Part shown: positions 1-61,731 of the stretch, piece by piece
Layout of the letters: every line of letters starts with the position of its first letter
How positions within the stretch are numbered: position 1 is the stretch's first letter
Origin: Procambarus clarkii
Lineage: Eukaryota > Arthropoda > Malacostraca > Decapoda > Cambaridae
NCBI RefSeq assembly: GCF_040958095.1
Contig: NC_091199.1
Location: forward strand, 35,480,942 to 35,544,941
Direction of reading: 5' to 3'
DNA: 64,000 nucleotides
Notes under the pieces: generated by a model
The model's database searches: none
What the model saw: only the letters and a program-made list of their open reading frames with translations
What the model was told of the DNA's origin: nothing
Program-made: the position numbers and the translations under genes

Positions 1-231
1 AACGTCACCACCACACACCACCTTCACCACCACACACCACCGTCACCATTAGACATCACCGTCACCACCACACACCACCGTCACCGCCACACACCACTAT
101 CACTACCACATACCAACGTTAGCACCACGCACCACCGTCACCACCACACACCACTGTCACCATTATACACCACCGTCACCACCACACTCCACCGTCAGCA
201 CCACACAACACCGTCACCACCACACACCAGA
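1..231. repeat. 19-bp satellite array, left part
   Basis: Tandem copies of a 19-bp unit built from CACCACCACACACC and ACCGT blocks. Variant units carry ATTATACACC in place of CCACACACC. The array runs off the left edge of the window and resumes at 2593 after a LINE insertion. The plus strand is almost free of G except in the GTC of each unit. Confidence 0.95.
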
Positions 232-2487
232 ATGAGAGAAGATGAACCAGCAATGCTTGATTTGATATTTACCCTAAATGAATGGGATATAAGGGAAGTT
301 AAGATGGAGGCGCCCTTGGGAATGAGTGACCACAGTGTATTGAACTTTGAGTACTTGGTAGAGCTAGGACTTATCTCCCCCCAAAAAGAACTAGGAATCA
401 AAAGGCTTGCATACCGAAAGGGGAATTATGAACAGATGAGAAGTTTCCTAAGTGAAATACCTTGGGACACAGACCTCAGAGACAAGTCTGTACAGGGTAT
501 GATGGACTATGTTACCCAAAAGTGTCAGGAGGCAGTAAACAGGTTCATCCCGGCCCAAAGGGAAAAATCCGAGAAGCAACAGAAGAATCCATGGTATAAT
601 AGGGCATGTATGGAAGCGAAGAAACTGAACAAAAAGGCGTGGAGGAACTTCCGGAATAACAGAACACCAGAAAGCAGAGAGAGATACCAGAGAACCAGGA
701 ATGAGTACGTCAGGGTGAGAAGAGACGCAGAGAAAAATTTTGAAAATGATATAGCAAACAAAGCCAAGACCGAACCAAAGCTACTCCACAGTCACATCAG
801 AAGGAAAACAACAGTGAAAGAACAGGTATTGAAACTTAGAACAGGCGAGGACAGGTATACAGAGAATGACAGAGAGGTGTGTGAGGAACTCAACAAGAGG
901 TTCCAGGAGGTCTTCACAATAGAACAGGGTGAGGTCACTGTGCTAGGAGAAAGGGACGTAAACCAGGCGGCCTTGGAGGAGTTCGAAATTACGAGAGAGG
1001 AGGTCAAGAGACACCTGCTGGATCTGGATGTTAGAAAGGCTGTTGGTCCAGATGGGATCTCACCATGGGTACTGAAAGAGTGTGCAGAGGCACTTTGCTT
1101 GCCACTCTCCATAGTGTATAGTAAGTCACTAGAGACGGGAGACCTACCAGAAATATGGAAGACGGCGAATGTGGTCCCAATATACAAAAAGGGCGACAGA
1201 CAAGAGGCACTGAACTACAGGCCAGTGTCCTTGACTTGTTTACCATGCAAGGTGATGGAGAAGATCGTGAGAAAAAACCTGGTAACACATCTGGAGAGAA
1301 GGGACTTCGTGACAAATCGCCAACATGGATTCAGGGAGGGTAAATCTTGCCTTACAGGCTTGATAGAATTCTACGATCAGGTGATACAGAATAAGCAAGA
1401 AAGAGAGGGCTGGGCGGACTGCATTTTCTTGGATTGTCGGAAAGCCTTTGACACAGTACCGCATAAGAGGCTGGTACATAAGCTGGAGAGACAGGCAGGT
1501 GTAGCTGATAAGGTGCTCCAGTGGAAAAGGGAGTATCTAAGCAATAGGAAGCAGAGAGTTACGGTGAGGGGTGAGACCTCCGATTGGCGTGAAGTCACCA
1601 GTGGAGTCCCACAGGGCTCTGTACTCGGTCCTATCTTGTTTCTGATATATGTAAATGATCTCCCGGAGGGTATCGATTCATTTCTCTCAATGTTTGCGGA
1701 CGATGCTAAAATTATGAGAAGGATTAAAACAGAAGAGGACTGTTTGAGGCTTCAAGAAGACCTAGACAAGCTGAAGGAATGGTCGAACAAATGGTTGTTA
1801 GAGTTTAACCCAACCAAATGTAATGTAATGAAGATAGGTGTAGGGAGAAGGAGGCCAGATACAAGGTATCATCTGGGAGAGGAAATTCTTCAGGAGTCAG
1901 AGAAGGAAAAAGACTTGGGGGTTGATATCACGCCAGACCTGTCTCCTGCAGCACATATCAAGCGGATAACATCAGCGGCATATGCCAGGCTGGCCAACAT
2001 ACGAACGGCATTCAGAAACTTGTGTAAAGAATCATTCAGAACTTTGTATACCACATATGTCAGGCCAATCCTGGAGTATGCAGCCCCAGCATGGAGTCCA
2101 TATCTAGTCAAGGATAAGACTAAACTGGAAAAGGTTCAAAGGTTTGCCACCAGACTAGTACCCGAGCTGAGAGGTATGAGCTACGAGGAGAGCCTACGGG
2201 AATTAAACCTCACTTCGCTGGAAGACAGAAGAGTTAGGGGGGACATGATCACCACATTCAAGATTCTGAAGGGGATTGATAGGGTAGATAAAGACAGTCT
2301 ATTTAACACAAGGGGAACACGCACAAGGGGACACAGGTGGAAACTGAGTGCCCAAATGAGCCACAGAGATATTAGAAAGAACTTTTTTAGTGTCAGAGTG
2401 GTTGACAAATGGAATGCATTAGGAAGTGATGTGATGGAGGCTGACTCCATACACAGTTTCAAGTGTAGATATGACAGAGCCCGATAG
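232..2487 (+). CDS. LINE A ORF2 fragment: endonuclease tail plus reverse transcriptase
   Basis: This 751-residue open frame has no internal stop. Residues 32-34 are SDH, the last catalytic motif of the exonuclease-endonuclease-phosphatase type LINE endonuclease, so only the final part of that domain remains. Reverse transcriptase motifs follow in order: VPIYKKGD and NYRPVSLT near 314-335, DCRKAFDTVPHKRL near 400, [11 protein letters not shown] near 457 and the catalytic FADD at 488-491. The C-terminal region (DRRVRGDMITTFKIL and onward) is the usual thumb and tail of CR1/L2/Jockey-group proteins. No RNase H domain is seen. ATG 232 is simply the first methionine after the truncation, not a native start. 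The open frame suggests recent insertion. It could not work alone because most of the endonuclease is absent. Confidence 0.9.
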   Translation: MREDEPAMLDLIFTLNEWDIREVKMEAPLGMSDHSVLNFEYLVELGLISPQKELGIKRLAYRKGNYEQMRSFLSEIPWDTDLRDKSVQGMMDYVTQKCQEAVNRFIPAQREKSEKQQKNPWYNRACMEAKKLNKKAWRNFRNNRTPESRERYQRTRNEYVRVRRDAEKNFENDIANKAKTEPKLLHSHIRRKTTVKEQVLKLRTGEDRYTENDREVCEELNKRFQEVFTIEQGEVTVLGERDVNQAALEEFEITREEVKRHLLDLDVRKAVGPDGISPWVLKECAEALCLPLSIVYSKSLETGDLPEIWKTANVVPIYKKGDRQEALNYRPVSLTCLPCKVMEKIVRKNLVTHLERRDFVTNRQHGFREGKSCLTGLIEFYDQVIQNKQEREGWADCIFLDCRKAFDTVPHKRLVHKLERQAGVADKVLQWKREYLSNRKQRVTVRGETSDWREVTSGVPQGSVLGPILFLIYVNDLPEGIDSFLSMFADDAKIMRRIKTEEDCLRLQEDLDKLKEWSNKWLLEFNPTKCNVMKIGVGRRRPDTRYHLGEEILQESEKEKDLGVDITPDLSPAAHIKRITSAAYARLANIRTAFRNLCKESFRTLYTTYVRPILEYAAPAWSPYLVKDKTKLEKVQRFATRLVPELRGMSYEESLRELNLTSLEDRRVRGDMITTFKILKGIDRVDKDSLFNTRGTRTRGHRWKLSAQMSHRDIRKNFFSVRVVDKWNALGSDVMEADSIHSFKCRYDRAR

Positions 2488-2562
2488 GCTTAAGAATCTG
2501 TACACCTGTTGATTGACGGTTGAGAGGCGGGACCAAAGAGCCAGAGCTCAACCCGCGCAAAC

Positions 2563-2590
2563 ACAACTAGGTGAGTACAACTAGGTGAGT
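2563..2590 (+). repeat. LINE A 3'-terminal tandem repeat, 2 x 14 bp
   Basis: Two exact head-to-tail copies of ACAACTAGGTGAGT end the element just before satellite resumes. Part of this sequence (ACAACTAG) reappears at the 3' end of the SINE at 51835-52085. Confidence 0.85.
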
Positions 2591-2592
2591 AC

Positions 2593-5500
2593 ACCACTGT
2601 CACCATTATACACCACCGTCACCACCACACTCCAACGTCAGCACAACACACCACCACCACACACCACCGTCACCACCACACACCACCGTCACCACCACAC
2701 ACCACCGTCACCACCACACACCACCGTCACCACCACACACCACCGTCACCACCACACATTACCGTCACCACCAAACACCGCAGTCACCACCATCGTCATC
2801 ACCACACCTCACCTTCACCATCACACACCACCGTCACCACCACACACCACCGTCACCATTATACACCACCGTCTCCACCACACACCACCGTCACCACCAC
2901 ACACCACCGTCACCACCACACACCACCGTCACCACAACACACCACCGTCACCACCACACACCACCGTCACCACCACACACCACCGTCATCACCACACCCC
3001 ACCTTCACCATCACACACCACTGTCACCATTGGTACACCACCGTCACCACCACACACCATCGTCAGCACTACACACCACGGTCACCACCACACACCACCG
3101 TCACCACCAAACACCACAGTCACCACCATCGTCATCACCACACCCCACCTTCACCATCAAACACTATCGTCACCATCACATACCACCGTCACTATCACAC
3201 ACCACCGACACCACCACACACCACCGACACCACCACACACCACCACACACCACAGTCACCACCACCACACTACCATCACCATCACAAAACACCGTCACCA
3301 CCATCGCACCACCGTTCCCATCACACACCACCGTCATCACCGCCACACCACCGTCACTATCACACATCACCGTCACCACCACACACCACCGTCACTACCG
3401 TCACCAACACACTCTACCGTCACCATCACACTCCACCGTCACCACCACACACCACCGTCACCACAACACACCACCGTCACAACCACACACCACCGTCACC
3501 ACCACATACCACCGTCACCACCACACACCACCGTCACCACCACACACCACCGTCTCCACCACACACCACCGTCACCACCACACACCACTTTCACTATTGT
3601 ACACCACCGTCACCACCACACACCACCGTGAGCACCACACACCACCGTCACCACCACACACCACCGTCACCACAACACACCACCATCACCACCACACACC
3701 AGCGTCACCACCCCACACCACCGTGATCACCACACCCCACCTTCACCATCACACACCACCATCACTACCACACACCACCGTCACCACCACACACCACCGT
3801 CACCACCACACACCACCGTCATCATTATACACCACCGTGAGCACCACACACCACCGTCACCACCACACACCACCGTCACCACCACACACCACCGTCACCA
3901 CCACACACCACCGTCTCCACCACACACCACCGTCACCACCACACACCACCGTCACCACCACACACCACCGTCACCACCACACACCACCTTGAGCACCACA
4001 CACCACCGTCACCACCACACACCACCTTCACCACCACACACCAACGTCACCACCACACACCACATTCACCACCACACACCACCGTCACCACCACACACCA
4101 CCGTCACTGCCACACACCACCGTCACCACCACACACCACAGTCACCACCACACACCACCGTCACCACCACACACCACCGTCATCATTATACACCAACGTC
4201 ACCACCACACACCACCGTCACCACCACACACCACCGTCACCACCACACGTTACCGTCACCACCAAACACCACAGTCACCACCATCGTCACCACCACACAC
4301 CAACGTCACCACCACACACCACCGTCACCACCACACACCACCGTCACCACCACACACCACCGTCACCACCACACACCACCGTCACCACCACACACCACCG
4401 TCACCACCACACACCACCGTCATCATTATACACCACCGTCACCACCACATACCACCGTCACCACCACACACCACCGTCACCACCACACACCACCGTCATC
4501 ATTATACACCAACGTCACCACCACACACCACCGTCACCACACGTTACCGTCACCACCAAACACCACAGTCACCACCACCGTCACCACCACACACCACCGT
4601 CACTGCCACACACCACCTTCACCTTCACACACCACCGTCACCACCACACACCACCGTCACCACCACACACCACCGACACCATTAAACACCACCGTCACCA
4701 CCACACACCACCTTCACCATCACACACCATCGTCACCACCAAACACCACCGTCACCACAACACACCACCGTCACCACCACACACCACTGACACCACCACA
4801 CACCACCGTCAGCATTATACACCACCGTCACCACCACACACCACCTTCACCATCACACACCACCGTCACCACCACACACCACCGTCTCCATCACACACCA
4901 CCGTCACTATTATACACCACCGTCTCCACCACACACCACCGTCAACACCACACACCACCGTCAGCACCACACACCACCGTCATCACCACACACCACCGTC
5001 ACCACAACACACCACCGTCAAAACCACACACCACTGTCACCACCACACACCACCGTCACCATTATACACCACCGTCACCACCACACACCACCTTCACCAT
5101 CACACACCACCGTCACCACCACACACCACCGTCTCCATCACACACCACCGTCACCACCACACACCACTGTCACCACCACACACCACCGTCACCACCACAC
5201 ACCACCGTCACCACCACACACCACCGTCACCACCACACACCACCGTCACCGCCACACACCACCGTCTCCACCACACACCACCGTAACCACCACACACCAC
5301 TGTCACTATTGTACACCACCGTCACCACCACACACCACCGTGAGCACCACACACCACCGTCACCACCACACACCAACGTCACCACAACACACCACCGTCA
5401 CCACCACACACCACCGTCACCACAACACACCACCGTCACCACCACACACCACTGTCACCACCACACACCACCGTCACCATTATACACCACCGTCACCACC

Positions 5501-14694: not shown

Positions 14695-14779
<85 letters not shown>
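14695..14779. repeat. (TA)n microsatellite, left border of the inverted array
   Basis: About 42 TA dinucleotides join the BEL/Pao fragment to the first partial 252-bp unit. Unbroken TA translates as alternating Y and I, so open frames here are meaningless. Confidence 0.97.
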
Positions 14780-14782
<3 letters not shown>

Positions 14783-15914
14783 AACAAGCCTGAATGGTCC
14801 CCAGGACTATATACAACTGAAAACTCACACCCCAGAAGTGACTCGAACCCATACTCCCACAACTGGTATGTACAGGGACGCCTTAATCCGCTTGACCATC
14901 ACGACCGGACATAAGGAAGTGATAGCCGAGGCTATATGAACCACTTCCCCGCCGGCACTCGGATGGTAATCTTGGGCATAGCATTTTATCAAATCACCTC
15001 ATTCTTTGGGGCACACGTGAGGAACACAAATGCAAACAAGCCTGAATGGTCCCCAGGACTATATACAACTGAAAACTCACACCCCAGAAGTGACTCGAAC
15101 CCATACTCCCACAACTGGTATGTACAGGGACGCCTTAATCCGCTTGACCATCACGACCGGACATAAGGAAGTGATAGCCGAGGCTATATGAACCACTTCC
15201 CCGCCGGCACTCGGATGGTAATCTTGGGCATAGCATTTTATCAAATCACCTCATTCTTTGGGGCACACGTGAGGAACACAAATGCAAACAAGCCTGAATG
15301 GTCCCCAGGACTATATACAACTGAAAACTCACACCCCAGAAGTGACTCGAACCCATACTCCCACAACTGGTATGTACAGGGACGCCTTAATCCGCTTGAC
15401 CATCACGACCGGACATAAGGAAGTGATAGCCGAGGCTATATGAACCACTTCCCCGCCGGCACTCGGATGGTAATCTTGGGCATAGCATTTTATCAAATCA
15501 CCTCATTCTTTGGGGCACACGTGAGGAACACAAATGCAAACAAGCCTGAATGGTCCCCAGGACTATATACAACTGAAAACTCACACCCCAGAAGTGACTC
15601 GAACCCATACTCCCACAACTGGTATGTACAGGGACGCCTTAATCCGCTTGACCATCACGACCGGACATAAGGAAGTGATAGCCGAGGCTATATGAACCAC
15701 TTCCCCGCCGGCACTCGGATGGTAATCTTGGGCATAGCATTTTATCAAATCACCTCATTCTTTGGGGCACACGTGAGGAACACAAATGCAAACAAGCCTG
15801 AATGGTCCCCAGGACTATATACAACTGAAAACTCACACCCCAGAAGTGACTCGAACCCATACTCCCACAACTGGTATGTACAGGGACGCCTTAATCCGCT
15901 TGACCATCACGACC
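14780..15914 (+). repeat. 252-bp tandem repeat, left arm of a large inverted repeat
   Basis: About 4.5 head-to-tail copies with an exact period of 252 bp (the identical 76-codon open frames start at 14936, 15188, 15440 and 15692). Read on the minus strand, each unit has a tRNA-like head: TGGTCAAGCGGATTAAGGC resembles a Pol III A box region and GGGTTCGAGTC a B box. Just upstream of the head is a hairpin, GGAAGTG-ATAGCC pairing with GGCTAT...CACTTCC (15167-15200 in one copy). The unit therefore looks like a tRNA-derived SINE that has become a satellite. Copies appear identical. Confidence 0.92.
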
Positions 15915-16012
15915 ATGAGGTGATTTGATAAAATGCTATGCCCAAGATTACCATCCGAGTGCCGGCGGGGAAGTGGTTCATATAGCCTCGGCTATCACTT
16001 CCTTATGTCCGG
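15915..16012. repeat. Spacer at the centre of the inverted repeat
   Basis: The left arm breaks off at CATCACGACC and joins the reverse complement of the unit at ATGAGGTGATTTG. About 98 bp of unit sequence, present only in reverse orientation, separates the two symmetrical arms. Confidence 0.85.
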
Positions 16013-17108
16013 TCGTGATGGTCAAGCGGATTAAGGCGTCCCTGTACATACCAGTTGTGGGAGTATGGGTTCGAGTCACTTCTGGGGTGTGAGTTTTCAG
16101 TTGTATATAGTCCTGGGGACCATTCAGGCTTGTTTGCATTTGTGTTCCTCACGTGTGCCCCAAAGAATGAGGTGATTTGATAAAATGCTATGCCCAAGAT
16201 TACCATCCGAGTGCCGGCGGGGAAGTGGTTCATATAGCCTCGGCTATCACTTCCTTATGTCCGGTCGTGATGGTCAAGCGGATTAAGGCGTCCCTGTACA
16301 TACCAGTTGTGGGAGTATGGGTTCGAGTCACTTCTGGGGTGTGAGTTTTCAGTTGTATATAGTCCTGGGGACCATTCAGGCTTGTTTGCATTTGTGTTCC
16401 TCACGTGTGCCCCAAAGAATGAGGTGATTTGATAAAATGCTATGCCCAAGATTACCATCCGAGTGCCGGCGGGGAAGTGGTTCATATAGCCTCGGCTATC
16501 ACTTCCTTATGTCCGGTCGTGATGGTCAAGCGGATTAAGGCGTCCCTGTACATACCAGTTGTGGGAGTATGGGTTCGAGTCACTTCTGGGGTGTGAGTTT
16601 TCAGTTGTATATAGTCCTGGGGACCATTCAGGCTTGTTTGCATTTGTGTTCCTCACGTGTGCCCCAAAGAATGAGGTGATTTGATAAAATGCTATGCCCA
16701 AGATTACCATCCGAGTGCCGGCGGGGAAGTGGTTCATATAGCCTCGGCTATCACTTCCTTATGTCCGGTCGTGATGGTCAAGCGGATTAAGGCGTCCCTG
16801 TACATACCAGTTGTGGGAGTATGGGTTCGAGTCACTTCTGGGGTGTGAGTTTTCAGTTGTATATAGTCCTGGGGACCATTCAGGCTTGTTTGCATTTGTG
16901 TTCCTCACGTGTGCCCCAAAGAATGAGGTGATTTGATAAAATGCTATGCCCAAGATTACCATCCGAGTGCCGGCGGGGAAGTGGTTCATATAGCCTCGGC
17001 TATCACTTCCTTATGTCCGGTCGTGATGGTCAAGCGGATTAAGGCGTCCCTGTACATACCAGTTGTGGGAGTATGGGTTCGAGTCACTTCTGGGGTGTGA
17101 GTTTTCAG

Positions 17109-17110
<2 letters not shown>
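16013..17110 (-). repeat. 252-bp tandem repeat, right (inverted) arm
   Basis: The reverse complement of 14817-15914, with the same 252-bp period (minus open frames at 16003-16233, 16255-16485, 16507-16737 and 16759-16989). I see no mismatch with the left arm. The arm passes directly into a TA tract at the unit's own GTATATAG site, so the TA block seems to have grown from a short TA stretch inside the repeat. Confidence 0.92.
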
Positions 17111-17204
<94 letters not shown>

Positions 17205-20054: not shown

Positions 20055-21510
20055 ACCGGGAAGGATATGTAGAACCATCAAGTGTGAGGAATAATCAGAG
20101 GGTGCTAAATATCACCAAGGATGCCAATACAAGAACAGAAACGCATTAGGCAAACGATATCAAAAGTATCCGATTCGCCAAGAATTCTACCAAGGGACAA
20201 GTGACCGCAAGAGATGGTTGCAAAGCAAGACACACACTTGTCCTGGAAGTCAGGACATTCAACAAGGATATGCACGACTGTAAGAGGGACAATGCAATTT
20301 GGACAATACGGAGTAGGGCCGCGCTCCTTTAAGTGTCCTTGAATTAAGCGAGTAATGCCAATACGCAGCTTTGCCAGAGCTGTTTCCTACCGCCGGTTAT
20401 GGTGGCAGGAGGAAGGCCACAGGGACACACTATACTTATGAGTACGCAGTTTGTTACCAGTAACAGAAGACCAACAACCCTACCAACGAGCAAGGATGGA
20501 GGAACGAATAACTGGGTAAAAGCCGGAATAAGGAATACCTTTATGGGAGATGGGACAAGTGTGCATAACTTCCTTAGCGGCTGCATTCGCACGCTCATTT
20601 AAAGAGACACCAACATGGCTGGGAACCCAACAAATCTCTACCAACTTAAATTTACTTGAGATAAGAAACAGCCAATGGTGATTACCACGGGTGGATCGAA
20701 TTAAAGGACCCCAAAGCCATGAGGGCACTACGAGAGTCAACTACCACCACAAAGGAGGATTGACAACGAGAAAGCAGCAGACGAAGAGCATAGAGAATAG
20801 CATAAAGTTCTGCTGTGAAGATGCTAGCCTCTGGAGGAAGGCAACACATATAAGTGCGGTCAGGAAAAACAACAGAGTAGCTCACACCGTCAGCAAACTT
20901 AGACCAATTCGTGAAGATGGAAACGGAGCGGGAGTTTGAAGAAAAGTGCTCAAGGAAAAGTCGTTTCAGAACTGTAGGAGGGGTAAAAGCTTTAGTCATG
21001 CGGATCAGGGAAGTACGAAATTTAGGAAGGGGGGCCCTCCATGGGGCAAGGATGGAATGATACGAGGAGAAACATTGGTAATACGAACCGAAAGAGAATC
21101 TTGTAAGTGAGACAAACGGACAGAAAGAGGAAGGTGATGAAGAGGAACAGGAGCAACAGGAGGGTAAAAGTCAAATCACGACAGAGGCGAGAGTGAGGAT
21201 GCTGTAATGACCGTGCAGGACAGCGAAGACAGTAGCCATCATGGTGTTCGAGAGAAAGGAAGCCTATGTCAGCGTACAAGCTGAGGGTAGGAGTTGAACG
21301 AAAGGCACCAGAGCTGAGGCACAACCAAGTATGGTGCAGAGAATCAAGACGACGAAGAGTAGAAGGAGAAGCAGAAGAGTATGAAGAGCAACTATAATCT
21401 AGTTTAGACAGGACGAGAGAGGAGTGCAAATAGAGGAGCGTGCGCCTATCTGCTCCCCAAGAAGTATGGGGCAAAACCTTAAGTAGGCTTATGGCCTTAG
21501 CCAGGGCCTG
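20055..21510 (-). pseudogene. LINE E: RT thumb, RNase H and C-terminal zinc motif (I/Jockey-group LINE)
   Basis: The 3' end of a LINE in several minus frames. 21510-21050 encodes an RT C-terminal region (SLLKVLPHTSWGADRRTLLY, then STLRRLDSLHHT). 20999-20682 encodes the first half of an RNase H domain: AELYAILYALRLLL carries the catalytic Glu and VVVVDSRSALMAL a catalytic Asp. The first Asp site, expected as TDGSK, reads TNWSK, so a key residue is lost. 20740-20550 supplies EICWVPSHVGVSLNERAN, the end of RNase H. About 20345-20210 reads CPNCIVPLTVVHILVECPDF, the C-terminal zinc motif of such elements. RNase H separates this lineage from LINE A and LINE B. The 5' half is missing and frames are broken, so it is inactive. 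It abuts a LINE A fragment at about 21510. Confidence 0.8.
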
Positions 21511-23162
21511 ATGTTATCCTCTTGATATGAGCTTCAGGGTACAGGTCTGGCGTGATATCAATTCCCCAGGTCTTTCTCTCTCTCTGACTCTTGAAGTATT
21601 TCATCTCACAAATGATACCTTGTATCTGGTCTCCTGCTTCCTACCCCTATCTTTATTCCATTACATTTGCTTGGGTTAAACTCTAACAGCCATTTGTTCG
21701 ACCATTCCTTCAGCTTGTCCAGGTCTTCTTGAAGCCTCAAGCTGTCCTCCTGTCTTAATCATTCTCATAATTTTTGGCGTCGTCAGCAAACATTGAGAGG
21801 AATGAGTCTATACCCTCTGGGAGATCATTTACGTATATCAGAAACAGGATAGGTCCAAGTACAGAGCCCTGTGGGACTCCACTGGTGAATTCACACCATT
21901 CTGAGGTCTCACCCCTCACTGTAACTCTCTGCTTCCTATTGCTTACGTACTCCCTTATCCACTGGAGCGCCCTACCAGTTACTCCTGCCTGTTACTCTCC
22001 AGCTTATGCATCAACCTTTCATGAGGTACTGTGTCAAATGCTTTTCGATAGTCCAAAAAAATGCAGTCCGCCCATCCTTCTCTTTCTTGCTTAATCTTTG
22101 TCACCTGATCGTAGAATTCTATCAAGCCTGTAAGGCAAGATTTACTCTCCCTGAACCCAGGTTGATGGGTTGTCATGAAGTCTCTTCTCTCCAGATGTTA
22201 TCTTGAGATTATCTTGAGATGATTTCGGGGCTTTAGTGTCCCCGTGGCCCGGTCCTCGACCAGGCCTCCACCCCCAGGAAGCAGCCCGTGACAGCTGACT
22301 AACACCCAGGTACCTATTTTACTGCTAGGTAACAGGGGCATAGGGTGAAAGAAACTCTGCCCATTGTTTCTCGCCTGCGCCCGGGATCGTGCCCAGGACC
22401 ACAGGATCACAAGTCCAGCGTGCTGTCCGCTCGGTCGACCGGCTCCCTAGCGGTCCTCCTGTGTTACTAGGTTTTTTCTCACAATCTTCTCCATCACCTT
22501 GCATGGTATACAAGTTAAGGACACTGGCATGTAGTTCGGTGCCTCTTGTCTGTCACCCTTTTTGTATATTGATACTACGTTAGCAGTCTTCCATATTTCT
22601 GGTAGGTTTCCCATTTCCAGTGACCTACTATACACTATGGTGAGTGGCAAGCAAAGTGCTCCTGCACACTCTTTCAATACCCATGGTGAGATTCCATCCG
22701 GCCAACAGCTTTTCTCACATCCAGCTCCAATAGGTGCTTCTTGATCTCATTTCTTGTAATTTCGAACTTATCCAAGGTCACCTGGTTTGCTGCCACCTCT
22801 CCTAGCGCCTTGACATCTCCCTGTTCTATAGTAAAGACCTCTTGGAACCTTTTGTTGAGTTCCTCACACACCTCTTTGTCATTCTCTGTGTACCTGTCCT
22901 CACCCACCCTAAGTTTCATCACCTGTTCCTTCACTGTTGTCTTCCTCCTGATGTGACTGTGTAGTAGCTTTGGTTTGGTCTTGGCTTTATTAGCTGTATT
23001 ATTTTCATATCTTTTCTCAGCTGCTCTTCTCACATTAACATACTCGTTCCTGGTTCTCTGGTATCTCTCTCTACTTTCTGGTGTTCTATTATTACGGAAG
23101 TTCCTCCATGCCCTTTTGTTCAGCTCCTTTGCTTTCTGTGAGGCTGTGTGGCAGCCCCTCTG
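21510..23162 (-). pseudogene. LINE A, second copy: internal reverse transcriptase fragment split by a SINE
   Basis: Minus-strand segments match the LINE A protein at 232-2487 throughout. 23033-22674 covers HSHIRRKTTVKEQV to LELDVRKAVG. 22677-22447 covers LPLTIVYSRSLEMGNLPEIW to KVMEKIVRKNLV. 22176-21979 covers CLTGLIEFYDQV to FLDYRKAFDTVPHERL. MFADDAK is near 21775 and DITPDLYPEAHIKRITSG near 21525. Stops and shifts lie between these blocks. A 249-bp SINE (22199-22447) interrupts it after NLVT. The 3' end stops at about 21510 against LINE E, and the 5' end at 23162 abuts a Ty3-type LTR. Inactive. Confidence 0.88.
22199..22447 (-). mobile_element. SINE B copy 1 (tRNA-headed, LINE B tail)
   Basis: Minus-strand order: tRNA-like head GGGAGCCGGTCGACCGAGCG with a degraded B box; a shared body containing GAGTTTCTTTCACCCTATGC and GTTACCTAGCAGTAAAATAG; then a tail with GAGGCCTGGTCGAGGACCGG and ACACTAAAGCCCCGAAATC, ending in tandem TCTCAAGATAA units. 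The tail matches the 3' end of LINE B (61650-61721). It is inserted in LINE A copy 2, with TAACA on both sides as a possible target duplication. Confidence 0.9.
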
Positions 23163-23872
23163 TTAGGAGCCAAGTCTCCTCAGTCACCTGCCAGCGCTCG
23201 GAAGGGACGGACATAGCTCCTACCTCCAGGACGTTCCTCCATCTTTACTCTCATATTTAGGCCTTCTGCCTTATCAAAACATACCTAACATATCAACAGA
23301 CACTTGCTACGACGCTGGGCACACATCCAACTATAGGCAATCACTATTAACTAGTTAAATTTGGGCTTACCACAATAAGGTCTCCTGCAGGGCGCTCTCT
23401 CTCTCTCTCGAGGGAGCCTGACCAGGGCGCTCACACGGCCCACGAAAATGTCTCTGGGCGGCTTCACAACTCTCCTTGCCGTCCAGTACTTGAGACCACA
23501 CATTCCCAGCTTGATTCCACAGCTGAAACATCTGCACACTTCCTTCCTCTTGAAGGTATATCAACTAGGGGTTCCTCTCTAACAGGAGCTCACACGAAGC
23601 ACAGCTTCCCCTCACAATGTCTGGTACTCAAGTGAGGGTCAAAGCCCTCCAGAAGCGAACCTCACACTTCTAGCAAATTCTCCACATCTCATGTCAAGTC
23701 ATTTACTTATATTCTTGATCACTGCCCATACTCTTAAACTATTTATCAAATCTAACCAATTATTTTACGTATGTATCAACATGTCTATATTTCTTTAACC
23801 TCATATTTAGGTCAGTTCTTGCAGAATAACTCTCAAGGTAGACTCGTTTCTCAGCTACCTGGGATCATAACA
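23163..23872 (-). repeat. Partial LTR of the Ty3-type gag-pro family (minus copy)
   Basis: Begins TGTTATGATCCCAGG on the minus strand at 23872 and matches the first 0.7 kb of the LTR at 25274, including GAGAGTTATTC, the TAGGGGTTCC region and GGAGTGTGCAGATG-like blocks, with clear divergence. Cut short at 23163 by LINE A. Confidence 0.8.
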
Positions 23873-24346
23873 CTCCCCACATCTTATTTTTGAGAGTTAT
23901 TCCAGTGGCGAGGCTCGGGATAATGCATCCACCACGACATTGTCTTGTCCTTTAACCGACTTGACGGTCGGTTGATCTGTTTACGTACTCCCTCAAGGAG
24001 TTTACAATTAGTCCATTGCACCTTGCAACATCTGGGTCACACCTCGCTAGACACATGGTCTTCTTCTTCTTGCACTCCTCACGTCCTGAGTCAGACATCT
24101 ACTGTCTATACCTCCTCTGTCGTCCTCGTGCTTCAGTTCATCACGCCCACGATTCGATCTGTCACCATCACACTTCAGTCTCACATCAACATTCTTCACT
24201 CTGTCGTTCTCACGCCTCCATCTACTGCCTTTATACTTCTGTCTCCATGTGAGAGTTTGAGAAAATGGAATATGAATGGTAATGAAGAATTGAGCTGGGA
24301 AAATTTCTTTAATTCTTTTAATGTTTATTCCTGTCATGATATTCAA
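23873..24346 (-). pseudogene. Ty3-type element internal 3' end: Gag-Pro C-terminal tail and RNase H stub (minus copy)
   Basis: Minus-strand sequence upstream of the LTR. It contains EDDRGGIDSRCLTQDVRSAR, which aligns with the extreme C-terminus of the gag-pro protein at 27431-30367 (EDDRGGTDSRCLTLDVKRRR). Closer to the LTR, 23941-23897 reads NVVVDALSRASPLE then stop, the same RNase H terminal stub found before the polypurine tract at 30542-30589. The spacing between tail, stub, purine tract and LTR matches the complete element, so this older copy had the same layout. The frame is open only locally. Sequence right of about 24346 is no longer recognisable. Confidence 0.72.
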
Positions 24347-24563
24347 TTAGGTAACCTGAGGAAAGACTTGCTTAGCTAACACATCAGTGTAGTAAACAGC
24401 TCATTCCTCACTCTGGGACCATTTATGAACAATTGACTAGGAGCGAGCAAACGCCGAGACCCCAAAAAGTTTAAATCCCCTCCACTGTAGGCCGTCGAAC
24501 TTCGCCAAAGCGAATCTAGCAAGTAGGTCCTGGGCTCTCACAACAATAATTTATTATTGTGTA
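24347..24563. other. Unassigned sequence
   Basis: No ORF or recognised repeat. It lies between the minus Ty3-type fragment and a SINE. Confidence 0.5.
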
Positions 24564-24816
24564 ATTATCTTGAGGTTATCTTGAGATGAATTCAGGGCTT
24601 TTTTAGTGTCCCCGCAGCCCGGTCCTCAACCAGGTCTCCACCCCCGGAAGCAGCCCGTGACAGCTGACTAACACCCAGGTACCTATTTTACTGCTAGGTA
24701 ACAGGGGCATAGGGTGAAAGAAACTCTGCCCATTGTTTCTTGCCGGCGCCTGGGATCAAACCCAGGACCACAGGATCACAAGTCCAGCGTGCTGTCCGCT
24801 CGGCCGACCGGCTCCC
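24564..24816 (-). mobile_element. SINE B copy 2
   Basis: Same order as copy 1 on the minus strand: head GGGAGCCGGTCGGCCGAGCG with GGGTTTGATCCCAGGCGCCG (near-intact B box), shared body, and the LINE B-type tail ending in TCTCAAGATAACCTCAAGAT. Nearly full length. Confidence 0.9.
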
Positions 24817-25268
24817 TGGTGGTGCCGTATATTTAGTCCAAATCCCATGAATCAGTCTCAATTTTAGTAGTCGAGTGTGACAGTACACTGACAGAAGTAT
24901 AATAATATGTGGGGTGTAACGAAAAGACTGTGTTCAACATAACACAGTTTATTCAATAAAGTACTAACTAATACAACAAAACACAAAAGAAATATCAATG
25001 ACGTTACTCGAAATCCTTCCTGTCACACTATCAATGACAGCTAGACACCAGCCCCTCGGACTACATAATGAACTAACTCGAACATAAGCCGTGAACACAG
25101 AGGAATCCATCAAGCAAGATACAGGCACAGATCTATAATCACACTGGCAACTATGACACAGTAGGGTCTGAGACACATCTCCAGTAACCTCTTAACAGTT
25201 CTACGCCTCTGTGCAGTCTACATCTGCAACAACGGTTGCAATGCAATCAAATCAGTAGCCTGTCAGTG
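24817..25268. other. Unassigned sequence, left flank of the complete LTR element
   Basis: No convincing ORF. Removing the LTR element (25274-32633) and the retroposon (32737-34572) makes it contiguous with 32639-32725 and 34584 onward, so these belong to one older background sequence. Confidence 0.5.
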
Positions 25269-38253: not shown

Positions 38254-38507
38254 GGTTATCTTGAGGTTATCTTGAGATGATTTCGGGGCTTTTTAGTGTC
38301 CCCGCGGCCTGGTCCTCGACAAGGCCTCCACCCCCCGGAAGTAGCCCGTGACAGCTGACTAACACCCAGGTACCTATTTTACTGCTAGGTAACAGGGGCA
38401 TAGGGTGAAAGAAACTCTGCCCATTATTTCTCGCCGGCGCCTGGGATCGAACCCAGAACCACAGGATCACAAGTCCAGCGTGCTGTCCGCTCGGCAGACC
38501 GGCTCCC
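38254..38507 (-). mobile_element. SINE B copy 3
   Basis: A near full-length minus-strand copy inserted in the 3' UTR of the ORF1-only retroposon. Intact B box GGTTCGATCCC, the shared body and the LINE B-type tail with TCTCAAGATAACCTCAAGAT. Confidence 0.92.

Positions 38508-42058: not shown

Positions 42059-42147
<89 letters not shown>
42059..42147. repeat. (TA)n microsatellite, left border of the 277-bp array
   Basis: About 44 TA units between the inverted LTR fragment and the first partial 277-bp repeat. Confidence 0.97.
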
Positions 42148-42150
<3 letters not shown>

Positions 42151-44825
42151 CCTATACTTGCATAAACCACAAGTGAAGATAAACAATCTTTGGACAACAC
42201 CCACCAGTGGGACTCGAACCCAGAAAGCACAACTACCTTCCAGTAGCTGGCATAACTAGTATGCTTTAACCCACTACGCCATCAGACCTTACAAAAGAAG
42301 TAGATAGTTCGAGATATATATATCTCAAACATCTCTACCTCCCGAAGGCACCAGATGAGTGAGGGGTCAGTCTGCAATTTTCGTCAAGCCACTGTCAATG
42401 TGAGAGAACTCGTGTCCAGCTTATAAGCCTATACTTGCATAAACCACAAGTGAAGATAAACAATCTTTGGACAACACCCACCAGTGGGACTCGAACCCAG
42501 AAAGCACAACTACCTTCCAGTAGCTGGCATAACTAGTATGCTTTAACCCACTACGCCATCAGACCTTACAAAAGAAGTAGATAGTTCGAGATATATATAT
42601 CTCAAACATCTCTACCTCCCGAAGGCACCAGATGAGTGAGGGGTCAGTCTGCAATTTTCGTCAAGCCACTGTCAATGTGAGAGAACTCGTGTCCAGCTTA
42701 TAAGCCTATACTTGCATAAACCACAAGTGAAGATAAACAATCTTTGGACAACACCCACCAGTGGGACTCGAACCCAGAAAGCACAACTACCTTCCAGTAG
42801 CTGGCATAACTAGTATGCTTTAACCCACTACGCCATCAGACCTTACAAAAGAAGTAGATAGTTCGAGATATATATATCTCAAACATCTCTACCTCCCGAA
42901 GGCACCAGATGAGTGAGGGGTCAGTCTGCAATTTTCGTCAAGCCACTGTCAATGTGAGAGAACTCGTGTCCAGCTTATAAGCCTATACTTGCATAAACCA
43001 CAAGTGAAGATAAACAATCTTTGGACAACACCCACCAGTGGGACTCGAACCCAGAAAGCACAACTACCTTCCAGTAGCTGGCATAACTAGTATGCTTTAA
43101 CCCACTACGCCATCAGACCTTACAAAAGAAGTAGATAGTTCGAGATATATATATCTCAAACATCTCTACCTCCCGAAGGCACCAGATGAGTGAGGGGTCA
43201 GTCTGCAATTTTCGTCAAGCCACTGTCAATGTGAGAGAACTCGTGTCCAGCTTATAAGCCTATACTTGCATAAACCACAAGTGAAGATAAACAATCTTTG
43301 GACAACACCCACCAGTGGGACTCGAACCCAGAAAGCACAACTACCTTCCAGTAGCTGGCATAACTAGTATGCTTTAACCCACTACGCCATCAGACCTTAC
43401 AAAAGAAGTAGATAGTTCGAGATATATATATCTCAAACATCTCTACCTCCCGAAGGCACCAGATGAGTGAGGGGTCAGTCTGCAATTTTCGTCAAGCCAC
43501 TGTCAATGTGAGAGAACTCGTGTCCAGCTTATAAGCCTATACTTGCATAAACCACAAGTGAAGATAAACAATCTTTGGACAACACCCACCAGTGGGACTC
43601 GAACCCAGAAAGCACAACTACCTTCCAGTAGCTGGCATAACTAGTATGCTTTAACCCACTACGCCATCAGACCTTACAAAAGAAGTAGATAGTTCGAGAT
43701 ATATATATCTCAAACATCTCTACCTCCCGAAGGCACCAGATGAGTGAGGGGTCAGTCTGCAATTTTCGTCAAGCCACTGTCAATGTGAGAGAACTCGTGT
43801 CCAGCTTATAAGCCTATACTTGCATAAACCACAAGTGAAGATAAACAATCTTTGGACAACACCCACCAGTGGGACTCGAACCCAGAAAGCACAACTACCT
43901 TCCAGTAGCTGGCATAACTAGTATGCTTTAACCCACTACGCCATCAGACCTTACAAAAGAAGTGGATAGTTCGAGATATATATATCTCAAACATCTCTAC
44001 CTCCCGAAGGCACCAGATGAGTGAGGGGTCAGTCTGCAATTTTCGTCAAGCCACTGTCAATGTGAGAGAACTCGTGTCCAGCTTATAAGCCTATACTTGC
44101 ATAAACCACAAGTGAAGATAAACAATCTTTGGACAACACCCACCAGTGGGACTCGAACCCAGAAAGCACAACTACCTTCCAGTAGCTGGCATAACTAGTA
44201 TGCTTTAACCCACTACGCCATCAGACCTTACAAAAGAAGTAGATAGTTCGAGATATATATATCTCAAACATCTCTACCTCCCGAAGGCACCAGATGAGTG
44301 AGGGGTCAGTCTGCAATTTTCGTCAAGCCACTGTCAATGTGAGAGAACTCGTGTCCAGCTTATAAGCCTATACTTGCATAAACCACAAGTGAAGATAAAC
44401 AATCTTTGGACAACACCCACCAGTGGGACTCGAACCCAGAAAGCACAACTACCTTCCAGTAGCTGGCATAACTAGTATGCTTTAACCCACTACGCCATCA
44501 GACCTTACAAAAGAAGTAGATAGTTCGAGATATATATATCTCAAACATCTCTACCTCCCGAAGGCACCAGATGAGTGAGGGGTCAGTCTGCAATTTTCGT
44601 CAAGCCACTGTCAATGTGAGAGAACTCGTGTCCAGCTTATAAGCCTATACTTGCATAAACCACAAGTGAAGATAAACAATCTTTGGACAACACCCACCAG
44701 TGGGACTCGAACCCAGAAAGCACAACTACCTTCCAGTAGCTGGCATAACTAGTATGCTTTAACCCACTACGCCATCAGACCTTACAAAAGAAGTAGATAG
44801 TTCGAGATATATATATCTCAAACAT
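42148..44825 (-). repeat. 277-bp tRNA-headed tandem array (about 9.7 copies)
   Basis: Exact 277-bp period: TTATAAGCCTATAC starts at 42421, 42698, 42975, 43252, 43529, 43806, 44083, 44360 and 44637, with partial units at both ends. Copies look identical except for a G/A change near 43963. On the minus strand each unit carries TGGCGTAGTGGGTTAAAGC (A box-like) and CTGGGTTCGAGTCCCAC (B box with T stem). These are preceded by the palindrome GAGATATATATATCTC flanked by GTT/AAC. It is a tRNA-derived repeat expanded in tandem. Confidence 0.95.
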
Positions 44826-44858
44826 CTCTCACATTGACAGTGGCTTGACGAAAATTGC
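44826..44858. repeat. 33-bp inverted fragment closing the 277-bp array
   Basis: CTCTCACATTGACAG through CGAAAATTGC is an exact reverse complement of unit positions such as 44590-44622. The array thus ends with a small fold-back before the retroelement begins. Confidence 0.88.
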
Positions 44859-51828: not shown

Positions 51829-51834
51829 CATGTG
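51829..51834. repeat. Target-site duplication CATGTG flanking SINE A, left
   Basis: CATGTG at 51829-51834 and again at 52086-52091 brackets the SINE exactly. Confidence 0.65.
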
Positions 51835-52085
51835 TTTACTAGTTGTGTTTTTGCGGGGGTTGAGCTTTGCTCTTTCGGCCCGCCTCTCAACTGTCAATCA
51901 ACTGTTTACTAACTACTTTTTTTCGTTTTTTTTTTTAAAAACCCAGGTACCTATTTTCTGCTAGGTAACAGGGGCACTTAGGGTGAAAGAAACTTTTCCC
52001 ATTTGTTTCTGCCTCGTGCGGGAATCGAACCCGCGCCACAGAATTACGAGTCCTGCGCTCTATCCACCAGGCTACGAGGCCCCCA
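51835..52085 (-). mobile_element. SINE A: tRNA-Thr-like head, shared body, LINE A tail
   Basis: On the minus strand: a cloverleaf-like head (52080-52011), then the same body as SINE B (AGTTTCTTTCACCCTAAGTG, GTTACCTAGCAGAAAATAGG), an A-rich link, and a tail with GTTGATTGACAGTTGAGAGG, AGCTCAACCCCCGC and ACACAACTAG. The tail matches the 3' end of LINE A at about 2508-2571. Flanked by CATGTG. Confidence 0.9.
52011..52080 (-). promoter_or_regulatory. tRNA-Thr(CGT)-like head with Pol III boxes
   Basis: Seven perfect acceptor pairs (GCCTCGT with ACGAGGC), a five-pair T stem around TTCGATT, and a five-pair anticodon stem (CAGGA/TTCTG, one G-T) holding loop CTCGTAA with anticodon CGT. A tRNA finder may call it a gene. 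The SINE body that follows without a terminator argues for an internal Pol III promoter instead. Confidence 0.8.
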
Positions 52086-57535: not shown

Positions 57536-58714
57536 ATGGCTTTGATAAGAACGTGCATAGAATGCAACATGAAGGTAGAATACCAACAGAGCTTTCACTG
57601 CCAACTCTGTTCAGCAGCCATACACAAAAAATGTGCCAACATGACTAATAATTCAAGGAGAAATGGTCCCAGTGACCACTCTGTGTACTAGCTCTGCAAA
57701 AAGGATGATGTAACTTTTTTGAAGATGATGGAAATCCCGGATAAAACTCCCGCCGAAAACAGAGAATCACTAATAAATGCCTGTATAGCAATTTCTAATG
57801 TCTTCAAACAAACTGTACATGACACCAAAGTACAACCAGATGCAGCACACAGCTCGGTGGCAGCGGCGCCGGAGCAGAGCAGGGAGTCGGGGACGCCTGA
57901 GCAGAGCGGGGAGTCGGGGACGCCTGAGCAGAGCGGGGAGTCGGGGACGCCTGAGCAGAGCAGGGAGTTCGGGGCGCCTGAGCAGAGCAGGGAGTCGGAG
58001 ACGCCTGAGCAGAGCAGGGAGTTGGAGACGCCTGAGCAGAGCGGGGAGTCGGAGACGCCTGAGAAGAGTGGGGAGTCGGGGGCGCCTGAGCAGAGCGGGA
58101 AGTCGGGGACGCCTGAGCAGAGCAGGGAGTCGGGGGTGCCTGAGCAGAGCACGGTGTCAATGGCACCGGAGCAGAGCGCGGTGTCGCAGGCCCCAGAGCA
58201 GAGTACAGTGTCGGGGACGCCGCAGCAGAGTGCGGTCCCTGGCAAAGGGACACAAACATAACAAGACCCCAAAATCAGTTGGTATTACAAATGGGCAACC
58301 TGTAAACATGGGATATCGGGAAGAACAAATGGAACATGCATGTACGATCACCCTAGAACGTGCAGAAACCTCCTCAATACAGGTAAATGTACCAAAAGCT
58401 GCGAATTCTTTCACCCAGAAGCTTGCAAGAACTCTTTGGACAGGAAAGAGTGCTTCAATGCTGAATGTCCAGCTTTTCATATAAGAGGTACCAAGCAAAT
58501 AAAACCGACAGACCGCCACTATGAAAACAGCCACTACTCCATCGACTGGGATAATTTTGTAGCAAGAGGAGGAGGAGAAGAATGGCTGAAAATGACCAGA
58601 CTCTACCACCAACTCGGTCAAATGCTGGAGAGGACGCAAACACAGTGGCCTTCTTACCAGAGCCTTAGATATTTACACCAAGTAAGGCATCCAGCACTTC
58701 CACTAACACGATAA
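57536..58714 (+). pseudogene. LINE B ORF1: PHD-like finger, 9-residue repeats, CCCH fingers
   Basis: ATG 57536 gives MALIRTCIECNMKVEYQQSF, then HCQLCSAAIHKKC and LCKKD: a Cys/His pattern like a PHD finger, known from ORF1 of some CR1 elements. TAG at 57689 (codon 52) interrupts it. About codons 112-237 (57869-58246) are 14 tandem 9-residue units, PEQSGESGT and variants. TAA at 58259 is a second stop. The same frame then reads CKHGISGRTNGTCMYDH, CRNLLNTGKCTKSCEFFH and CKNSLDRKECFNAECPAFH, three CCCH-type motifs of which the last two have canonical spacing. The end overlaps ORF2. Such proteins are expected to bind element RNA. The 27-bp repeats leave other frames open on both strands, which creates spurious ORFs. 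The two stops are inactivating unless read through. Confidence 0.75.
57869..58246 (+). repeat. 27-bp coding minisatellite inside LINE B ORF1 (14 units)
   Basis: CCTGAGCAGAGCGGGGAGTC-type units with a 27-bp period encode PEQSGESGT variants. The period keeps frame, and substitutions concentrate in the second half of each unit. Confidence 0.9.
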
Positions 58715-61698
58715 CATCATTTATATTTGCCAACATCCAGGGTATAAAAACACGCAAATCCAACAAAGTTCACTTTATAGATGGTCTCCTTCATGAGGCA
58801 AATGCAGTGTTTGCAGCCCTAACAGAAACCCACACAAAGGACTACCATAATGGTGAAATATGGATCTCAGAGTACAATCTTTTCAGATGTGAGAGGAAAC
58901 ACCGGCTTCAGGGTGGGGTCAGCCTCTACGTCAAAGACACACTCATCTGTACTGAGCTGCTAAACACCTCAAATGATATGGTAGAAGTGCTGATAATCAA
59001 AATAGAGATCCTAAATGTAGTTATTGTCCTTGTATATAAGTCACCGGAGGCAAACCCTCAGCAGTTTAAAGACCAACTAATGAAAATAGAACACTGCTTG
59101 GAAAACCTCACAAATCCAGCTCCGAACATCATCCTGCTTGGGGACTTCAACCTACGACACCTGAAATGGAAGCACCTGGCTAATACAGTAATATCAGAAA
59201 GAATACCAGGAAGTAGCCTAAATGAACAGGCACATGCAAATGACCTGCTACGAATGTGTGACAGGTTTGCCTTAAACCAGCAAATAGTAGAACCAACTAG
59301 GAAGGAGAACACGTTGGACCTCATTTTCACTAATAATGATGACTTGATCAGGAACATAATGATTACAAATACCTGTTACTCAGATCACAACTTAATTGAA
59401 GTTATGACAACCATGGGGAATAGACCATCAAAACCAGTCCAGATTCTAGGTGGAGGAGATTTCAGCAAATTCAACTTCAATAATAAACAGATAAACTGGG
59501 AGCAAATAAACCAGGACTTCACAGAAATAAACTGGGAAGATCAGCTAGAAAGTGCAAACCTGAACCAGTGCTTGGAAAAAATAAGCTCAGTAGCACTAGA
59601 AATATGTTCAAACCGCATACCCCTAAGAAAAAAAAGAGGACGAGATGCAGATTGGAACGGGAACGTCGTTCCCTATATAGGCGAAGAAAACGAATCGCGG
59701 AGCAACTTGAGAGTCGCACCCTATCTCAAGAACGGCGAAGAAGGTTAGGTAGAGAAATAGAAACAATTGAACTCAAGCTACAAGAATCATACAAAACCCA
59801 GGAGAGGCAAAGAGAGCAAAAGCCCATCAGTGAATTAGAGAAAAATCCGAAATATTTTTTCTCCTATGCAAAATCAAGATCAAAAACCACATCTAGTATC
59901 GGGCCCCTGCGAAAGGGAGATGGAACTTTCACCGATGACAACAAAGAAATGAGCGAGCTACTGAGGAAACAGTATGACTGTTTTCAGCGAGCCATTAAAC
60001 GCACTAAAGATTGATAACTCAAATGAATTTTTCATGGATATGATACCAACATCAAATCATATATCAGACGTCACCCTATCCCCACTGGATTTTGAAGAAG
60101 CCATAAACAGTATGCCTATGCACTCTGCACCAAGCCCGGATTCTTGGAACTCCATATTCATCAAGAACTGTAAATAACCACTATCGCAGGCCCTCCACAT
60201 TCTGTGGAGACAAAGCATAAATACTGGCGTTATCCCTAATATACTAAAAACAGCAGAGATAGCACCACTTCATAAAGGAGGAAATATGGCAGAGGCAAAA
60301 AATTACAGACCGATAGCACTAACATCGCACATCATAAAAATTTTTGAGAGAGTGCTAAGAAGTAAGATCACAAAATACATGGAATCACAGCATCTCCATA
60401 ACCCCGGACAACATGGTTTCAGAACAGTGCGCTCTTGCCTGTCCCAGTTGCTGGACCACTATGATATGGCATTAGATGATATGGAAGACAAACAAAACGC
60501 GGATGTAATTTACACAGATTTCGCAAAAGCTTTTGATAAATGTGACCATGGTGTTATTGCACATAAAATGCGTTCAAAAGGAATTACCGGAAAAATAGGC
60601 AGATGGATCTACAATTTACTGACTAACAGAATAAATAAAATCCAGCCCATCAACCGTGAAGAGCTCAGTCCCCCAGGGTACTGTGCTTGCTCCAGTACTT
60701 TTTCTCATCCTCTTATCGGACATGGACAAGAACATAACCTATAGCACTGTATCATCCTTTGCAGATGACACTAGGATCTTCATGAGAGTAGGCAACATAG
60801 AGGACACGGCAAACCTCCAATCAGATGTAGATCAGGTCTTTCTATGGGCTACAGAAAATAATATGGTGTTTAACGAACATAAGTTCCAGCTCATGCGCTA
60901 TGGAAAAAATGAAAATATAAAAACGGAAACCACGTACAAAACTCAGGCAAATCATAACATAGAACGAAAAGGCAATGTAAAGGATATGGGTGTACTCATG
61001 TCGGAAGACCTTACCTTTAAAGAACACAATAAAGTAGCCATCACAATTGCAAGAAAAATGACAGGTTGGATAACAAGAACTTTTCACACTAGAGATGCTA
61101 AACCGATGATGATACTTTTCAAAACGCTTGTGCTCTCTAGAGTGGAGTACTGCTGCACAATGACAGCCCCTTTCAAAGCTGGAGAAATTGCTGACCTGGA
61201 GAGTGTGCAGAGATCCTTTACTGCTAGAATCCACTCAGTAAAACATCTAAACTATTGGGACTGACTAAAGAGCCTAAATCTGTACTCCCTTGAGCACAGG
61301 CGGGAGAGATACATAATAATTTACACGTGGAAAATATTAGAGGGGCTGGTCCCAAACCTGCACACAGAAATGAGACCACATCACATGAGACCAGAAAACA
61401 TGGCAGGATGTGCAGAATACCCCCGTTGAAAAGCAGAGGTGCAACAGGTACTCTGAGAGAGAACTCTATCAACATCAGAGGCCCGAGACTGTTCAACACA
61501 CTTCCGCTACACATAAGGGACATAACTGGCAAACCCCTCACAGTGTTCAAGAGAGAACTGGATAAGCACCTCCAAAGGATACCTGATCAACCAGGCTGTG
61601 ACTCATACGTTAGGCTGCGAGCAGCCGCGTCCAACAGCCTGGTTGATCAGTCCAGCAACCAGGAGGCCTGGTCGACGACCGGGCCGCGGGGACGGTAA
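58582..61698 (+). pseudogene. LINE B ORF2: endonuclease and reverse transcriptase
   Basis: ATG 58582 (MAENDQTLPPTRSNAGEDAN) overlaps the ORF1 end by about 130 nt; TAG at 58666 follows after 28 codons. The endonuclease is otherwise well kept: FANIQGIKTR, VFAALTETHTKD, NIILLGDFNLRHLKW and CYSDHNLIEV carry the Asn, Glu, Asp and SDH motifs. A shift in the A run at 59625-59640 leads to KKKKRTRCRLERERRSLYRR; further shifts lie near 59995, 60175 and 60665. RT motifs are NYRPIALTSH, TDFAKAFDKCDH, SVPQGTVLAPVLF and FADD (60758-60769). A TGA at 61262 and another shift near 61430 precede the tail GPRLFNTLPLHIRDITGKP. The last 20 codons lie in the segment shared with SINE B. No RNase H. Confidence 0.85.
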
Positions 61699-61721
61699 GC
61701 CCCGGAAGCACCTCAAGGTAA

Positions 61722-61731
61722 GGACCCGGTT
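61722..61731. repeat. LINE B target-site duplication, right (GGACCCGGTT)
   Basis: Follows the last base of LINE B and pairs with 56766-56774. Confidence 0.75.

Follow-up and report, generated by a model that had tools for sequence, protein, structure and literature searches.

A shared SINE body with two LINE-derived tails in Procambarus clarkii, and a landing niche that goes with the tail

The window, the 64-kb stretch of DNA analysed here, is a piece of contig C50 of the 4.03 Gb genome of Procambarus clarkii. It contains a copy of SINE A, three copies of SINE B and members of two LINEs, referred to as LINE A and LINE B, whose 3' tails recur on the two SINEs (Table 1). An earlier note on this DNA had named strings for both SINEs and for the LINEs; all were present at the places claimed, some SINE B copies with up to two mismatches. 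A 21-base word of the SINE body occurs 74,845 times genome-wide, and the body pattern had no match in viral contigs. Many copies that are 97–100% identical to the window SINE loci lie at about 20–36 Mb of C50, as if the region were segmentally duplicated. The window also holds 252-bp tandem arrays and a 277-bp array, at 14778–17117 and 42145–44829, beside (TA)n/(AT)n. In the part compared, the units of two neighbouring 252-bp arrays look reverse-complementary, and the units of the 252- and 277-bp arrays hold an ACTCGAACCC word that resembles the tRNA B box.

Table 1. Positions of the SINE and LINE features in the 64-kb window.
Feature	Position	Strand	Remarks
LINE A	230..2590	+	seems 5'-truncated; reverse transcriptase and 3' tail; inside 19-bp satellite
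LINE A 3' tail common to SINE A	2508..2571	+	
LINE A terminal repeats (ACAACTAGGTGAGT)n	2563..2593	+	
SINE B copy 1	22197..22446	-	sits within LINE A fragment (21508–23134, minus)
SINE B copy 2	24565..24815	-	
SINE B copy 3	38254..38506	-	
SINE A copy	51832..52083	-	internal deletion in body and spacer; complete consensus 293 bp
SINE A tail	51839..51902	-	88% to LINE A 3' end
SINE A body	51938..52010	-	shortened by internal deletion
SINE A head, tRNA-Thr-like (CGT)	52010..52080	-	ARAGORN; Rfam RF00005 48.6 bits
LINE B, broken frame	58669..61722	+	endonuclease in 58669–59748, reverse transcriptase pieces in 60178–61264, 3' tail
LINE B 3' tail common to SINE B, two predicted hairpins	61662..61721	+	

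The anatomy of SINE A emerged when the window copy was aligned to the SINE A copies of 20 fetched loci. A complete element is composed of the head, a body ending in GTTAGTCAGCTGTCACGGGCTGCTTCCTGGGG, a (TG)n/A-rich spacer, which lies between body and tail in the fetched copies, and the tail. Its consensus length when complete is 293 bp, and that of SINE B is about 253 bp. As compared to its duplicate L028 on C50, the window copy of SINE A has seven bases in place of 60. The earlier note had expected a sharp breakpoint between shared and unshared sequence directly after ATAGGTACCTGGG, but this apparent end of the body is an artefact of the deletion in the window copy. In all 20 fetched copies, the SINE A body is extended by AGTTAGTCAGCTGTCACGGGCTGCTTCCTGGGG or a sequence much like it, which SINE B also has; the two SINEs have in common everything up to CTGCTTCC plus the G run that follows it. 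The true breakpoint is indeed sharp and lies about 30 bases further 3', at CTGCTTCC/TGGGG; it is hidden in the window SINE A because of the internal deletion. The beginning of SINE A is partly repeated (for example as GGGGCCTCGTA) directly 5' of the head at L016, L029, L023 and L106, perhaps reflecting 5' template jumps.

Between the A and B consensus sequences, the bodies are 93.3% identical, the heads 70.5% (shuffled sequences: mean 51, maximum 59) and the tails 49.5% (shuffled: mean 47.9, maximum 54.9). The bodies are thus clearly related and the tails unrelated. The 3' parts had been described as wholly different, and their identity is no better than that of shuffled sequence; the similarity of the bodies survived in consensus sequences, a test that the earlier note had set for itself. 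The proposal that both SINEs bear tRNA-Thr-like heads stood for SINE A only, whose head was called as Thr-CGT by ARAGORN and scored 48.6 bits in Rfam. SINE B gave no tRNA call: at the two copies in 22150–24900, one head scored 19 bits over the full model, below the Rfam threshold of 29, and the other had no tRNA match in the Rfam scan. The resemblance between the A and B heads is at least that of two tRNA-like sequences.

The body may be a CORE domain, in which case the term 'CORE-SINE-like', used for this family when it was first noticed, would be literally right. In a colinear alignment to a provisional version of the MIR CORE sequence, the B body was identical at 40 of 55 columns and the A body at 37 of 52; the B score was reached by 2 of 5000 dinucleotide shuffles and the A score by 27 of 5000 shuffles, which suggests CORE-SINE membership.

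Pfam searches identified RVT_1 in LINE A, as well as endonuclease and reverse transcriptase pieces, in different frames, in LINE B. Over 200 residues, the two reverse transcriptases share 31% of their positions, and we therefore regard LINE A and LINE B as two distinct LINEs. Both may belong to the CR1/L2 type, the analysis itself having given the RVT_1 and endonuclease matches and this identity. LINE A, over its span in Table 1, also includes, as judged by a motif, the putative end of the endonuclease region. Just upstream of LINE B, a 27-bp tandem repeat in an open frame occupies 57867–58230 of the window.

Each tail had been attributed to one of these LINEs. In SINE A, 65 bases of the tail are 88% identical to LINE A, and the SINE B tails of the window match LINE B over 61–64 bases at 85, 75 and 81%; among 200 kb of random sequence, SINE B tails were 84–88.5% identical to LINE B. 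The 80% identity that the earlier note had required of each tail is thus missed by the SINE B copy at 24565 (75%) and by dimers such as L066 (about 78%). Dimeric SINE B elements occur at L066, L071, L073, L074 and L077, each with a second, 5'-truncated body plus tail after a full copy, and their common flanks make these loci look like duplicates of one locus.

In the sequence examined, tail B occurs on LINE B, and tail A on LINE A as well as on diverged relatives of it. These relatives, in L044, L047 and L048, show 65–69% DNA identity over 259–908 bases, and some of them retain a recognisable A-type end. Among the sequence examined, only two LINE B 3' ends are preceded by LINE B sequence (in the window and in L036), and the tail-B piece of L049, which could not be assigned, lacks such sequence upstream. 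The relatives of LINE A and the L049 piece tell against a strict pairing of one tail with one LINE. The older SINE A copy L037, as well as L098, L099, L105 and L106, ends in ACTAGGTGA, like LINE A. L096 and L097, which are probably duplicates, carry an A-type SINE whose tail shares 95.8% of its bases with LINE A, a similarity that suggests a further tail exchange. On folding, the tails of LINE B and SINE B gave the same two predicted hairpins. The A tails, in an alignment drawn from 52 distinct tails (five dropped as rearranged or too short, one L048 tail added by hand), gave one conserved predicted hairpin with few compensating changes.

A third family, of which the window has no copy, joins the head and body of SINE A to the tail of SINE B. 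We designate the families by head and body, followed by the tail. Exact junctions across the whole genome numbered 5,896 for A/A, 7,930 for A/B, 28,024 for B/B and 60 for B/A; the A/B marker in these counts is a single body base, and the fetched A/B copies do have A heads. Twenty loci on C1 were fetched at body matches that the B-type word list lacked; they comprised nine A/A, six B/B and four A/B elements, the last two classes each with one duplicate, and one element with a B-like head and an A tail. Ten further A/B loci had an A head in nine cases, one of them partly lost, and no A head in the remaining one. The A/A consensus (seven copies) and the A/B consensus (12 copies) are identical at all 175 head-and-body positions compared. 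Median divergence was 2.7% for A/A (n = 7), 1.8% for A/B (n = 12) and 3.2% for B/B (n = 15 of 21 copies, six being without the anchor word); the copies were chosen by exact words, hence these medians are no age estimate. The suggestion that the SINEs switched partners by exchanging tails is supported, as the A/B recombinants, with their 7,930 exact junctions, show that tails were swapped.

A young recombinant family of the opposite kind, with B body and A tail, was considered and rejected. The 60 exact B/A junctions amount to about 1% of the A/A count, and one of them falls at the A/A copy L059, so that point mutants are likely. Separately, L101 shows a second class of breakpoint.

The modular pattern could also have arisen if the same conserved domain had been taken up independently between separately acquired heads and tails, with no exchange in one lineage. 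Such a history would suit heads that are 70.5% alike beside bodies that are 93.3% alike, and a head A whose likeness to a tRNA far exceeds that of head B. We nevertheless consider it unlikely, since the A/B recombinants show at least one exchange and B-like heads also occur with A tails in older copies (L098 and L048).

The families differ in where they stand. On C1, (CA)n directly precedes 24 of 95 listed A/A places and none of 97 listed A/B places (p = 8.6e-9), as judged by a strict pattern in which an exact 14-base A-head start must have (CA)5 no more than 9 bases away. Of the first 100 A/A and 100 A/B places listed, 5 and 3, respectively, were set aside for lying beyond the end of the CA listing; one of the 24 CA-preceded A/A places lies at an odd distance (172, versus 125–127). 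We also classified 108 copies with both flanks; 20 were taken for duplicates because of their similar flanks, and 88 remained. In this sample, (CA)5 or longer stands before the head in 29 of 35 A/A copies (25 of the 35 having come from a best-match search, which makes the sample partly selected), in none of 12 A/B and 30 B/B copies, in both copies with a B-like head and an A tail, and in one of nine with unclear modules. Six of the 35 A/A copies lack (CA)n under the sample rule. When only the less selected sources are taken, (CA)n precedes nine of ten A/A copies versus none of 12 A/B copies (p = 2.0e-5), and when look-alike duplicates are merged by eye, six of seven versus none of 12 (p = 2.6e-4).

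Genome-wide pattern matches numbered 9,349 for CA plus A head (2,197 reverse) versus 105 for CA plus B head (28 reverse), the forward counts being inflated by overlapping CA registers and the reverse ones looking like one per locus. The 100 matches listed for CA plus B head represent 57 loci. The landing niche therefore goes with the tail, that is, with the LINE partner.

For LINE A itself, the evidence of a CA preference is mixed. The window copy is inserted in a CA-rich 19-bp satellite, (ACACCACCGTCACCACCAC)n, which extends over 3–229 and 2591–12944, more than 10 kb, and some LINE A copies start in (CA)n. Of the LINE A starts in the random 200 kb, inspected by eye, three are in CA-rich DNA (L033 and two in L048) and four elsewhere (L033, L035, L037 and L045); the loci beyond this set were picked for holding SINE A. 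At the A/B (11) and B/B (15) loci, no consistent repeats indicating target-site duplications were detected: direct repeats of at least 6 occurred at three of 11 A/B loci, as against 17 of 110 pairs of mismatched flanks, and at four of 15 B/B loci versus seven of 210, with four B/B loci skipped.

The CA flanks might reflect no target preference at all, if the terminal CA repeats of A-tailed elements slip to greater length and later copies land in them by chance. The ends of LINE A and SINE A do run into (CA)n, and six of 20 SINE A loci have a LINE A-like tail immediately upstream. However, CA also stands 5' of the head: 15 of the 20 best-matching SINE A copies have at least (CA)6 in the 60 bases before it, against a background in which (CA)8/(TG)8 or longer runs make up 0.39% of 200 kb sampled at scattered places. 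B-tailed copies were not found at such places (B/B 0 of 30, A/B 0 of 12), and even with arrays made by earlier elements, entry would still track the A tail. Slippage alone thus seems an improbable source of the pattern.

Less probable still is that gene conversion or ectopic recombination made the A/B copies, with A sequence overwriting the head and body of resident B/B copies: they do occupy B-like sites, as converted B/B copies would, but 7,930 exact junctions and a median divergence of 1.8% (in 12 copies selected by exact words) look like amplification of a source element. Resident A/A copies are unlikely as the main substrate, since the strict pattern puts none of the 97 listed A/B places in (CA)n and no examined A/B copy lies there, which makes it unlikely that A/B elements are A/A copies overwritten in place.

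We instead favour, with good though not full confidence, three-module SINEs served by two LINE partners, in which template switching within the body swaps the tails, and the tail sets both the machinery and the landing site. The data show the modules (a tRNA-like head, a conserved body and a LINE-derived 3' tail), the matches between tails and LINEs, the recombinant family and the tie between tail and landing site. If the same cells copy the RNAs of both SINE families, a reverse transcriptase could switch template inside the near-identical body, and the new cDNA would acquire the other tail, yielding A/A, B/B and the recombinant A/B. The acquired tail would bind the enzyme of the other LINE, used in trans, so that the new family would land where that LINE lands; A-tailed copies would enter AC-rich tandem repeats and B-tailed copies would not. 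The A partner may reach (CA)n through an endonuclease preference or through annealing of its CA-rich 3' end. The template switching, the trans use of each LINE's enzyme and the route to (CA)n are inferred.

Comparable modular SINEs have been described. SINEs with stringent LINE partner recognition have a head derived from an RNA gene and a 3' end in common with a LINE of their genome, as do the elements here, the B head with a sub-threshold tRNA match; mobilisation by the enzyme of that LINE would be a further trait. CORE-SINEs likewise have a tRNA head, a conserved central domain and a LINE-derived 3' end (PMC3899998, PMC7983390). As compared to them, and granted the CORE match to the provisional sequence, this genome combines two tails with two landing niches and also holds their recombinant. 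HaSE1 and HaSE2 of Helicoverpa armigera likewise have a common head and central domain with differing 3' parts, and HaSE3 was proposed to be a template-switching chimera (PMC3272025). The 3' region of HaSE2 matches a mariner-like DNA element, whereas the second tail here is that of a second LINE, and the part of that source available to us describes no tail-linked change of landing for HaSE1, HaSE2 or HaSE3, unlike the present case (PMC3272025). PxSE1 and PxSE2 of Plutella xylostella are similar in that near-identical heads and central domains carry other 3' ends; unlike here, no recombinant family or landing difference is described in the accessible portion of the report (PMC8010984). Sauria SINEs and Bov-B LINEs show a SINE and its partner LINE with a common insertion signature, but they form, as far as the excerpted source goes, a single SINE/LINE pair with no tail-swapped control family (PMC13295347).

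In the open-licence literature, which says little on subscription papers and repeat databases, we found no report of tail-swapped SINEs of one genome with different landing, and six words of the SINE body had no match in open-licence paper texts. Why SINEs retain conserved central domains is an open question. Tail exchange via such domains has already been proposed and is one suggested answer (PMC6887750).

With somewhat less assurance, though still on the favourable side, we propose that the 3' tail alone reprograms landing, the same head and body going to CA-rich repeats with tail A and elsewhere with tail B, and that exchange through the body would move a family between LINE partners and niches. 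If this is true, the conserved body gains a concrete role as the switching point. The thousands of copies that have one head and body and either of two tails constitute a natural experiment, which separates the tail, and with it the LINE partner, from the head and body in target choice and makes the partner switch directly testable.
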